Source: Stenotrophomonas maltophilia (GTDB lineage: Bacteria > Pseudomonadota > Gammaproteobacteria > Xanthomonadales > Xanthomonadaceae). Taken from it: DNA of 64,000 bases. The notes under the pieces were generated by a model. The model was not told the DNA's origin and did not search any database. It saw nothing but the letters and a program-made list of their open reading frames with translations. This document shows positions 36,029-45,589 of this stretch, one piece after another. Position numbers and translations under genes: made by a program. The DNA lies in the NCBI RefSeq assembly GCF_002138415.1, contig NZ_CP015612.1:2830001-2894000 (forward strand), written 5' to 3'. Positions within the stretch are counted from its first letter, which is position 1. Each line of letters starts with the position of its first letter.

Positions 36029-36232
36029 TCATGTCGCGTATTCCCAGCTGGCCGGAAACCGTTGAATCTTGCCGCCGCGCGCTTCGAACTGTTCGACGGT
36101 CTCGGCTGCTCCAAGGGTGATGGTGCCCTGCTTCAGTCGCTTAGGCCGCGACACCGTGTTGTGGTCCATCCGCCGCTCGCGTGGCGCACGCTGGGGGTTG
36201 ATCCTCGGCGCAATGGCCTTCGTCTTCTTCAT
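36029..36232 (-). CDS. Small basic hypothetical phage protein
   Basis: 67 residues from ATG 36232, overlapping the preceding stop. Basic N-terminus (MKKTKAIAPRINPQRAPRER), then TLGAAETVEQFEARGGKIQRFP, a pattern of small DNA-binding-like proteins encoded before Q. No domain recognised. Confidence 0.6.
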   Translation of the reverse strand: MKKTKAIAPRINPQRAPRERRMDHNTVSRPKRLKQGTITLGAAETVEQFEARGGKIQRFPASWEYAT

Positions 36233-36597
36233 GCTGCCGCCCTCAGTTCGTTGATGTAGGTCTGGTTTGCAATCAGCTCGTCGTCAGAGCCGTACGTCTC
36301 GTGGAAGGTCCGCGAGCCATCCATCAGGCTCGGGCCGTAGATCTGGCGCATCGTCGCGAAGGTGTTCCCTTCCATCGGATGCCGCATGTGGTGCCACTTG
36401 CAGAGGGCGTAGCCGAACAAGTGGCCGCGCCGAAGGTTCCCGCTCTTGGCGTGGTTGTAGTCGCAGCCGTAGACCACCAGCTCCGGCTCCAGCAGCTGCT
36501 GCTCCAGCAACGCCAGGCAGGCCATGCACGGACCCGTCTTGGCCAACTCGATGCGCGCGCCCTCTTCCCTGGTCGGTGGCGGTGCCTTCGACCACAT
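36229..36597 (-). CDS. Ref-like recombination-associated nuclease
   Basis: 122 residues from ATG 36597, overlapping the preceding stop; the longer upstream frame is unsupported. CMACLALLEQ, then VVYGCDYNHAKSGNLRRGH and YALCKWHHMRHP form a Cys/His metal site like that of phage P1 Ref (RecA-dependent nuclease, HNH-related). It is in the slot where lambdoid phages keep ninB/ninG/rusA recombination genes. Family call is fairly likely; RecA dependence is family knowledge. Confidence 0.72.
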   Translation of the reverse strand: MWSKAPPPTREEGARIELAKTGPCMACLALLEQQLLEPELVVYGCDYNHAKSGNLRRGHLFGYALCKWHHMRHPMEGNTFATMRQIYGPSLMDGSRTFHETYGSDDELIANQTYINELRAAA

Positions 36598-36791
36598 CAG
36601 CGCAACTCCGGGATTGGGCCGGCATAGCGGGTGATCGGGATCTGGCGCATGCCATCGCGCCAAACCCGGGTGCCACGCGTGGCGTACAGCACCAACGGCT
36701 TGATTCCGTAGCCATAGGCCAGATACCAGCCGGCCACCGCCACCGGCTCGGACACCGGGCGCACCTCCAGTTCGACGTGGTCCTGCCTCAT
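36597..36791 (-). CDS. Small hypothetical phage protein (64 aa)
   Basis: Starts MRQDHVELEVRPVSEPVAVA; beta-rich with Tyr/Gly (YLAYGYGIKPLVLYA). It overlaps both neighbours by stop/start overlaps in the early operon. Unknown function. Confidence 0.6.
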   Translation of the reverse strand: MRQDHVELEVRPVSEPVAVAGWYLAYGYGIKPLVLYATRGTRVWRDGMRQIPITRYAGPIPELR

Positions 36792-37459
36792 GCCGCCGCG
36801 TCCTGAGCGGAACCGAGCAGCTCGGCGATCTCGGCCAGCCGCTTCCGGGCGCGCTCGTTCGCTTGCGGACTGGCCTCCACTCGGCCTGCCAGCAGCGCCA
36901 GCGGATTGAACACGGGCGTGGCCGGCGGCAGTGACAAGTAATCAGCAACCTGCTCGTGCGCCAGGCGGCCGGCGGCTACCGCCTGCTGCAGCGCTGCGTC
37001 CCGTGCGGCGGAGTCATGGCCCAGCGACGGCTGGTATACGGCACAGCCGCCTGCAGCTCGCGCCTCCTTCACCAATCGGGCGTACACCTCCAAGAACGCT
37101 GCCCGGCCAGCAATCTTGTCTCCGGCCTCCACCAGCGGCAGCGCCGCGGTCCATGCGTCCCGGGTCTGCTCAGTCCATACCAGCGTCACCGCCTCGTCGG
37201 CAGCGCGGATCGCCACGGCCCATGCTTCGTTTGGTGCCGGGTGCCCGTCGTCGATCCGTTCCATGATCGCGGCGAGGCTGAGCTTGCCCTTCACCTCGCG
37301 TCGGCAGGCGGTCAGCGCGTTGGCCAACACCTGCAGCGTATAAGCCGCCAGGTCAGTGACCATGTAGGCCGCAGCGGCCGGGCGGATCTGCTCGCCCATC
37401 ACCTCAGCCGTGGCCACCAGCATTTCGACCAGCCTGTCCTGATCGGCATCACTGAGCAT
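36788..37459 (-). CDS. Replication-associated phage protein (lambda P position)
   Basis: 223 residues, helical. VTDLAAYTLQVLANALTACR, KLSLAAIMERIDDGHPAPNEAW and DKIAGRAAFLEVYARLV are the pattern of proteins that follow the HTH initiator in xanthomonad and Burkholderia phages. No ATPase motif is present, so it is not DnaC-like. By analogy with lambda O-P order it may help load the host helicase; this is inference. Start overlaps the initiator stop. Confidence 0.65.
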   Translation of the reverse strand: MLSDADQDRLVEMLVATAEVMGEQIRPAAAAYMVTDLAAYTLQVLANALTACRREVKGKLSLAAIMERIDDGHPAPNEAWAVAIRAADEAVTLVWTEQTRDAWTAALPLVEAGDKIAGRAAFLEVYARLVKEARAAGGCAVYQPSLGHDSAARDAALQQAVAAGRLAHEQVADYLSLPPATPVFNPLALLAGRVEASPQANERARKRLAEIAELLGSAQDAAA

Positions 37460-38342
37460 TGGCGTTCCCCTTCATGCGGCGCAGCAGCGCCTTGGCATCG
37501 TCGGCCGCATTGGCATTGGCCTGCGTCTGGTCCTGCTGGTTGGCGCTGGTCGCGGTCACCTGCCGTCCGGTCGCCCACTGCGTGCGGTATGCCTCGCACT
37601 TCGCCAGCAGCGATCCCAGGTCGTGCATGTTCTGCACCACGTAGCGCTCGTTGACGGTCAGGAACCACGCTGCCACCAGCGGTGCCTCGCTGTGGCCCAG
37701 CCGCTGAACGATCTGCCGCACGTTGGCGTTGACCTTCGCGTTGCGGACCGGCGCCACGCCGTGCCGCTCGCGGTAAGCGCCGGCGTAGGCCGTCCAAGTT
37801 GCGCGGCACGCTGACTGCAACTCGGTTTCCGAATCGACCACCGGCGGCGCGGCCGGCAGGCCCGCCGGGAATGATGGTTCTTCTGACGGTTCATTGAGGG
37901 TTATATGACGGTTAGGCGGCACGGGGCGCACCTCCAGACCTGCGCCCGGTGCATCCCCTCCTGCAGCGGGCACATCCCCTCCTGCGCCGGGCGCACCCCC
38001 TGCATGGGGCGCAGCACCTGCGCCCGGTGCAGTACCGTTCTTTCCAGTCTTGCGAGTGCCCTTGGACGGCGCAGCGGCAGCGTTGAACTTGGCCGGCGTA
38101 ACCGAGTAGACAGTGCTGCTGTTGAATCGGCGATCACGCGCCAGCAGGCCAACGGCCTCCAGGTGATCCATGGCGCTACGCACAGCGCGCGCCGACATGC
38201 AGCAGCGCGCGGCGATGGTGCCCACTGCCGGCCAGCACACGCCATCGTCGTTGGCCTGATCCGCCAGCGAGATCAGCACGGCCTTCTGCGTGACGCTCAG
38301 GCCCTGCAGCGGCCAGCACTGCGACATGATGATGGTCGACAT
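37449..38342 (-). CDS. Helix-turn-helix replication initiator (lambda O-like) with internal iterons
   Basis: 297 residues from ATG 38342. Residues 1-95 are a winged-helix DNA-binding domain (LSVTQKAVLISLADQANDDG, CMSARAVRSAMDHLEAVGLL). Residues about 105-140 are an Ala/Gly/Pro repeat encoded by five DNA iterons. The C-terminal half is helical (NAKVNANVRQIVQRLGHSEA). Layout and position match lambda O, where the origin lies inside the gene. It would bind the origin and recruit the partner encoded downstream. Confidence 0.8.
   Translation of the reverse strand: MSTIIMSQCWPLQGLSVTQKAVLISLADQANDDGVCWPAVGTIAARCCMSARAVRSAMDHLEAVGLLARDRRFNSSTVYSVTPAKFNAAAAPSKGTRKTGKNGTAPGAGAAPHAGGAPGAGGDVPAAGGDAPGAGLEVRPVPPNRHITLNEPSEEPSFPAGLPAAPPVVDSETELQSACRATWTAYAGAYRERHGVAPVRNAKVNANVRQIVQRLGHSEAPLVAAWFLTVNERYVVQNMHDLGSLLAKCEAYRTQWATGRQVTATSANQQDQTQANANAADDAKALLRRMKGNANAQ
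37868..37915. other. AT-richer tract beside the iterons (candidate unwinding element)
   Basis: A locally AT-richer stretch within the initiator gene (for example GGTTATATGACGGTTA near 37900), directly adjacent to the iterons as in lambda ori. Candidate duplex-opening site. Confidence 0.4.
37939..38031. repeat. Five-iteron array, candidate phage replication origin
   Basis: Five 15-bp iterons on the plus strand begin at 37939, 37960, 37981, 37999 and 38017 (spacing 21, 21, 18, 18): CCTGCGCCCGGTGCA, CCTGCAGCGGGCACA, CCTGCGCCGGGCGCA, CCTGCATGGGGCGCA, CCTGCGCCCGGTGCA. Each has dyad symmetry TGC-N7-GCA or near it. They lie in the middle of the initiator gene. Confidence 0.65.
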
Positions 38343-45497: not shown

Positions 45498-45513
45498 ACT
45501 GGCGGAGAGAGTG
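45498..45513. other. attR core within the tRNA-Ser 3' end
   Basis: ACTGGCGGAGAGAGTG, identical to 3774-3789. It covers encoded CCA, discriminator base, 3' acceptor strand and three T-arm bases, so integration leaves the tRNA gene intact. Confidence 0.85.
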
Positions 45514-45589
45514 GGATTCGAACCCACGGAAGGTTTAACCCTTCGCCGGTTTTCAAGACCGGTGCCTTAAACCGCTCGGCCATCTCTCC
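45500..45589 (-). tRNA. tRNA-Ser (anticodon UGA)
   Basis: 90 bases including encoded CCA. Acceptor GGAGAGA / TCTCTCC, discriminator G, anticodon loop CTTGAAA (anticodon TGA), a long variable arm typical of class II tRNA (CGAAGGGTTAAACCTTCCG) and T loop GTTCGAATC. It is the prophage attachment site. Confidence 0.97.

Follow-up and report, generated by a model that had tools for sequence, protein, structure and literature searches.

A candidate replication origin with a helically phased repeat element inside the initiator gene of a Stenotrophomonas prophage

Introduction

Can the middle of a prophage initiator gene also be the place where replication of the phage begins? The question is raised by an O-like gene in the window, the 64-kb stretch of Stenotrophomonas maltophilia DNA analyzed here, for which the original prediction had proposed a lambda-type origin made of five near-identical iterons beside an AT-richer tract. 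It touches on a wider one, since discussion continues on whether origin unwinding elements are mere AT-richness or a strand code read by the initiator (PMC10797057, PMC10316083). We conclude, with a probability of roughly 0.8, that positions 37872 to 38031 are where lytic replication of a Stenotrophomonas prophage begins, an origin lying within the initiator gene itself, in the part that encodes a linker predicted to be disordered. No paper testing the use of this segment as an origin in vivo was found in the open-access literature.

Results

The gene that carries the candidate origin lies at 37449 to 38342 on the minus strand and encodes 297 amino acids plus a stop. Its product matches HTH_36 (PF13730, 7.7e-11, above the family cut-off) and, in PHROGs, phrog_391 "replication initiation O-like" (9.8e-53), which places it among the HTH_36/phrog_391 phage O-like initiators and bears out the identity first proposed for it. 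The HTH_36 winged helix, the proposed reader of the iterons, spans residues 14 to 67 (38142 to 38303, minus strand), and a structure model predicts the fold H-H-H-E-E at residues 17 to 81. Between this domain and a C-terminal domain (37473 to 37811, minus strand; phrog_11527, 3.7e-32) that is helical in the model lies a linker predicted to be disordered (residues 91 to 169, pLDDT <50; 37836 to 38072, minus strand), and this linker holds both the iterons and the AACC repeats described below. The model has a mean pLDDT of 63 and a pTM of 0.37 and counts for its outline alone.

The initiator gene sits in a prophage early region with the order weak-HTH gene (plus strand), Cro/YdaS-like gene, CII-like gene, small phrog_1123 gene, initiator, and phrog_6028 gene. 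The last of these (36788 to 37459, minus strand) overlaps the initiator gene by 11 bp, and in phages LESphi3 and PotUPM1, too, a phrog_6028 gene comes next after the initiator. In relatives, the position after the initiator is taken by P-like, DnaB-like, or DnaC-like genes, and from its position the phrog_6028 gene is a candidate helicase loader. The close relatives of the initiator come mostly from Stenotrophomonas, with viral contigs in addition. Downstream of the replication genes there is a RecA-dependent nuclease-like gene (36232 to 36948; PF16786, 4.2e-12), and the sole tRNA found in the window, a tRNA-Ser with anticodon TGA at 45500 to 45589, is a possible prophage integration site.

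The five repeats of the original prediction start, on the plus strand, at 37939, 37960, 37981, 37999, and 38017, which confirms their spacings of 21, 21, 18, and 18 bp. Read along one strand they are not near-identical because their orientation is mixed: the one-strand family of 21-nt repeats has four members, three of them 76 to 86% identical to the reference copy, and does not include the copy at 37999. Once each copy is oriented, the description holds, with zero or one mismatch to TGCGCCCNNTGCA. Iterons 1 (38019 to 38031) and 5 (37941 to 37953) point one way, on the plus strand, and both read TGCGCCCGGTGCA with no mismatch. The opposite, minus-strand orientation is found in iteron 2 (38001 to 38013; TGCGCCCCATGCA, no mismatch), iteron 3 (37983 to 37995; TGCGCCCGGCGCA, one mismatch), and iteron 4 (37962 to 37974; TGTGCCCGCTGCA, one mismatch). 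A sixth iteron had been missed (37918 to 37930, minus strand; TGCGCCCCGTGCC, one mismatch); it lies 23 bp on and therefore stands in a codon phase different from that of the other five. These six sites at up to one mismatch compare with a mean of 0.46 and a maximum of 2 in synonymous shuffles, and none of 300 shuffles of the window gene reached six. Across the 64 kb, the one-mismatch iteron word matches 12 times, of which the array accounts for six, versus 5.5 expected, and 1 of 100 shuffles reached 12; the significance of the iterons lies in their cluster, and the word alone is mildly enriched window-wide. The iterons thus lie inside the initiator gene, as in the lambda-type in-gene layout.

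Among relatives, the iteron array was present in 87 of 88 genes (that of the window and 87 others), the exception being the distant L009; one locus search contributed the best 80 of 108, and L008 and L071, in which the signature found no gene, were left out. In eight relatives that were put through the shuffle test, 0 of 300 synonymous shuffles reached six iterons (maximum, 4). Codon choice across the iteron zone, taken from 74 non-redundant linkers, is distorted relative to the rest of the genes: Asp is encoded by GAT in 96% versus 31%, Ala by GCA in 60% versus 11% and by GCC in 0% versus 44%, and Pro by CCC in 59% versus 4%. The presence of the array in nearly all of the genes and this distortion uphold the expectation that the iterons are conserved as DNA more strictly than the linker requires, and no homologue with the linker but without the DNA repeats was seen in the close family. 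The sixth iteron is retained in relatives and is reversed in five of them (L069, L073, L078, L088, and L089). At the reversed site in four of these five, the peptide DLHGAPP replaces EVRPVPP and a one-mismatch site remains. Since codon-weighted random encoding produces a site within one mismatch in 4% of cases for LDLHGAPP and in 15% for LEVRPVPP, we rejected the inverted site as stand-alone proof and count it as support only. The iteron copy number varies in frame, with 39 bp added in L001, L002, and L032 and 36 bp in L056; these two-unit additions are natural copy-number variants.

Next to the iterons, the AT content reaches 60% over 45 bp from 37870, the 99.8th percentile of the window. The AT-richer tract was real, but the prediction had missed its content, a specific array of AACC repeats. 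Four AACC[GAC]TCA units, spaced by 11, 11, and 12 bp, make up the proposed DNA unwinding element at 37872 to 37913 on the minus strand: AACCGTCA at 37906 to 37913, AACCCTCA at 37895 to 37902, a second copy of AACCGTCA at 37884 to 37891, and AACCATCA at 37872 to 37879, all on that strand. Read along the gene, the layout is AACCGTCA-N3-AACCCTCA-N3-AACCGTCA-N4-AACCATCA, and the array is 4 bp away from the sixth iteron. The triple-unit pattern has 2 overlapping matches in the window and none in 100 dinucleotide shuffles. The locus thus combines an AT-rich tract beside iterons, as in a lambda-type layout, with short direct repeats in a putative unwinding element beside iterons, as in origins of the RctB/TrfA type.

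We then looked at O-like genes gathered by protein similarity only, 196 in number: that of the window, its 87 relatives, 26 of 27 phage records, and 82 of 86 further loci. A second locus search contributed the best 80 of 87 relatives; L288, L304, L324, and L349 were left out, as was F116, whose slice runs across two CDS and has 5 stops. The 196 genes reduce to 52 representatives at <70% identity, which contain 62 copies of AACC[AG]TCA; 500 synonymous shuffles gave 5.56 ± 2.08 copies and never more than 14. This motif ranks first of 1,120 letter permutations, and its reverse complement does not occur in the 52 representatives. The 29 pairs of adjacent copies are only 10, 11, 12, or 22 bp apart, and copies fall in frames 0, 1, and 2 at 9, 43, and 10, respectively. 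At least one copy is present in 33 of the 52 genes, at least two in 20, and at least three in 9. At least three AACC chained at 10 to 12 bp are seen in 29 of 52 (shuffle mean, 3.7; maximum, 8; 200 shuffles), which is no prevalence figure because the search seeded with LESphi3 favors class I, the N-terminal type defined below; chains of at least four occur in 23 of 52 (shuffle mean, 1.5; maximum, 5). When all 256 tetranucleotides were compared, only AACC (29 genes) and the overlapping GAAC (23 genes) chained widely; the next ones, ACCG and CCGT (5 each), overlap the AACC unit, and no independent tetranucleotide came near. The consensus of the unit is G-AACC-R-T-M-A. The iterons just upstream vary from phage to phage (ACCCCCGCA..TGCACCC, GGCAC..GTGCC, GACTGTGTGTCAC, and others), and the AACC units, which always come after the iterons in the printed arrays, are in these genes the more constant of the two elements. 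Together, the data show that iterons and phased AACC[GAC]TCA units are kept at the DNA level beyond the needs of the protein.

The same unit was approached from the motif side in viral contigs, where a scan for the three-unit pattern gave at least 120 stretches and the complement pattern 41 in all. Of the at least 120 loci, 80 were listed; 10 were set aside as simple repeats or as lying on the opposite strand, and the 70 kept included 61 non-redundant ones. Spacings among the loci listed were 10 bp (27 cases), 11 bp (72), 12 bp (33), 13 bp (7), and 22 bp (1) in a search that allowed 10 to 13, and reading frames 0, 1, and 2 were used 51, 103, and 48 times. All three frames were used in 30 of the 61 non-redundant genes, among the matches listed. 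Family scans covered 49 of 71 candidate proteins, with 22 left out; 46 of the 49 match phrog_270 "replication initiation protein" and 43 match HTH_36. A weak match to DnaD_N was seen in 12 of the 49 as well. A crude domain-core motif, slightly looser for targets than for controls, was positive at 58 of the 75 target loci that had an ORF on the same strand and at 0 of 41 control loci. When whole genomes were scanned with a strict pattern, 1 of 299 matched; the array of the window itself fails that pattern because one of its units has a C.

The type of unit follows the N-terminal domain of the initiator. Among representatives with the N terminus K[AS]VL[IMV]SLAD (class I), 26 of 28 carry an AACC chain, versus 3 of 24 others (Fisher 2.5e-9, a value without correction for shared descent). 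The two class I exceptions, L335 and L342, have just two units each, and the three chain-bearing genes outside class I are L240, with units of the class II kind, L346, with a real array, and L348, probably a chance case. Phages LASTA and Pavtok have a motif of the window protein in their C terminus but a different N-terminal type, and they lack the chain. The gene after the initiator varies in class I phages (phrog_6028, P-like phrog_109, DnaB-like phrog_19, or, after L243, DnaC-like phrog_50), and the repeat is retained. Phages with a class II N terminus (from Klebsiella, Salmonella, Vibrio, Aggregatibacter, and one from Pseudomonas) have AACCAGTCA instead of the AACC unit: 14 copies in 7 class II genes versus 0.92 expected (maximum, 5 in 1,000 shuffles), of which two, found in L254 and L256, are not part of the array. 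AACCAGTCA is absent from the class I representatives. This correlation between unit type and N-terminal type points to the initiator as the likely reader of the AACC unit.

Several features of these arrays may be recorded beside the correlation. The stretch with the AACCAGTCA units (in L240, L248, L249, L254, L256, L257, and L258) encodes (S)HSxEPVxEP and is alike across hosts. Some other representatives, such as L250, L251, L253, and L261, have neither the AACC unit nor AACCAGTCA. The enterobacterial initiators L251, L253, and L261 carry tandem TCAAAATCTGACGCG-like repeats with DASKSDASK peptides, another in-gene iteron type. In L255 (Aeromonas 4_D05) and L260 (Vibrio 14E30.1), short repeats of the CCTAACAA type come after the iterons and are perhaps a third type of element.

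Discussion

As far as sequence tells, the prediction of a lambda-style origin is supported. Stronger than the iterons, on this evidence, is what lies beside them, an element that is conserved, independent of frame, and helically phased. The best explanation would be an in-gene origin of lambda design whose phased, sequence-specific unwinding element resembles those of the RctB and TrfA origins. The N-terminal winged helix would bind the near-palindromic iterons and form an O-some-like complex, and the adjacent AT-richer tract would open under this assembly. The phased AACC units on one strand could then be held by the initiator assembly, as by TrfA on RK2 and RctB on ori2, because the unit type follows the N-terminal domain and not the C-terminal domain or the loader gene. 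A phage loader, perhaps encoded by the next gene, would presumably then help to load DnaB. The linker is predicted to be disordered and should therefore be able to accept amino acids dictated by the DNA.

Other readings of the repeats deserve weight. It is somewhat unlikely that the origin is real but that a reader other than the initiator, be it DnaB, a host protein, or the helicase loader, recognizes its AACC units; a contact shared with host or loader would predict a unit that stays constant while iterons vary, as is seen, but the kind of unit tracks the N-terminal type of the initiator and, in a comparison of the adjacent genes, the neighbor varies among class I phages. It is less probable still that the iterons serve the initiator as an autoregulatory operator or as a copy-control array acting by titration or handcuffing, with a generic AT tract and replication starting elsewhere. 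Iteron arrays often regulate too, and HTH_36 resembles the winged helices of transcription factors. However, the middle of a gene is an unusual place for an operator, and the adjoining AACC units, with their fixed place after the iterons, are specific and phased beyond AT-richness.

The strand bias of the AACC repeat, with no reverse complement in the representatives, would also suit an element acting in the coding-strand mRNA, such as a regulator-binding or translational one. Yet contact with single-stranded DNA would give the same bias, the spacing is about one DNA helical turn (10 to 12 bp) beside near-palindromic duplex sites, and the gene is richest in AT where the array lies, so that we consider action in mRNA very unlikely. 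We find it barely credible that the repeats are a feature of the protein (Ala/Gly/Pro or EPS-type linker repeats) or of slippage, with no function in DNA. The in-frame changes of 39 and 36 bp, the low complexity of the linker, and EPS (frame 1) as the commonest reading of the AACC unit all fit such a feature, but the synonymous shuffles contradict it and led us to reject plain low-complexity or slippage repeats. Codon choice is moreover reversed in the iteron zone, half of the non-redundant motif-found genes use three frames, and spacings go beyond multiples of three.

Returning to the in-gene origin with an initiator-read element, we lean, with reserve, toward a broader proposal. Temperate phages with HTH_36 O-like initiators, a large group, may share a sequence-specific, helically phased opening code, either AACC[AG]TCA (class I, ~11 bp) or AACCAGTCA (class II), which would be tiled along the gene, dictate its amino acids, and be coselected with the N-terminal domain, independent of the fast-changing iterons. 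If this is true, phages would have in this code their own counterpart to DnaA-trio and RctB-type elements, and the recurrent NRxxT..EPSxEPS peptide would be one 8-mer read in three frames. Variants from many phages and in different frames indicate a phased unit that follows the DNA-binding domain, so strand recognition could be tested in simple phage replicons. AACC units every 10 to 12 bp in the middle of an O-like gene may help to find origins in such phages, and the locus would clearly illustrate how a DNA element can dictate the sequence of the protein segment encoded on it. No paper naming the AACC unit was found in the open-access literature; because most subscription journals lie outside it, this negative result argues only weakly for novelty.

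Among known systems, the lambda origin (NC_001416, L350) likewise lies in the middle of its initiator gene, with annotated iterons followed by an AT-rich tract and with the P gene next (PMC7466680), and O proteins are described as interacting with AT-rich single-stranded DNA (PMC7466680). The lambda design proposed for the window therefore holds for the layout, iterons and AT tract in an initiator gene, but not for the protein: lambda O belongs to Phage_rep_O (PF04492, 5.7e-36) and not to HTH_36, and membership of the window initiator in the lambda O family was rejected, since it gave no PF04492 match at E values up to 1. Lambda also differs in having four iterons of another sequence and an O gene without the AACC chain, in which only AAAA chains. 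The P1 oriL in repL (L351) also lies within a gene, and its activity drops when an AT-rich stretch of repL is changed synonymously (PMC9948254); repL has no AACC chain, and the HTH_36 score of RepL is below the Pfam cut-off. Since neither lambda O nor P1 repL has the repeat, in-gene phage origins do not need it generically.

The repeats of unwinding elements differ in length, spacing, and sequence among replicons (PMC10797057). Vibrio cholerae chromosome 2 has, at ori2, RctB iterons beside six ATCA repeats in the unwinding element, and RK2 oriV has TrfA iterons beside four GGTT (PMC10316083); the RK2 13-mer consensus is TAAACnTTnTTTT, and TrfA binds single-stranded DNA strand-specifically (PMC4081077). 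These are a chromosome and a plasmid with other initiator proteins, in which single-strand binding has been shown, and the AACC/GGTT and ATCA letters that the window has in common with them may be chance. Closest to the window are the Pseudomonas and Stenotrophomonas phages LESphi3, PotUPM1, MD8, D14E, D14O, and CUB19. Their iteron core is unlike that of the window (ACCCCCGCA..TGCACCC, or GGCAC..GTGCC in D14O), and in some of them the C-terminal domain and the next gene differ as well, but all six have the same N-terminal class and in-gene iterons followed directly by AACC units.
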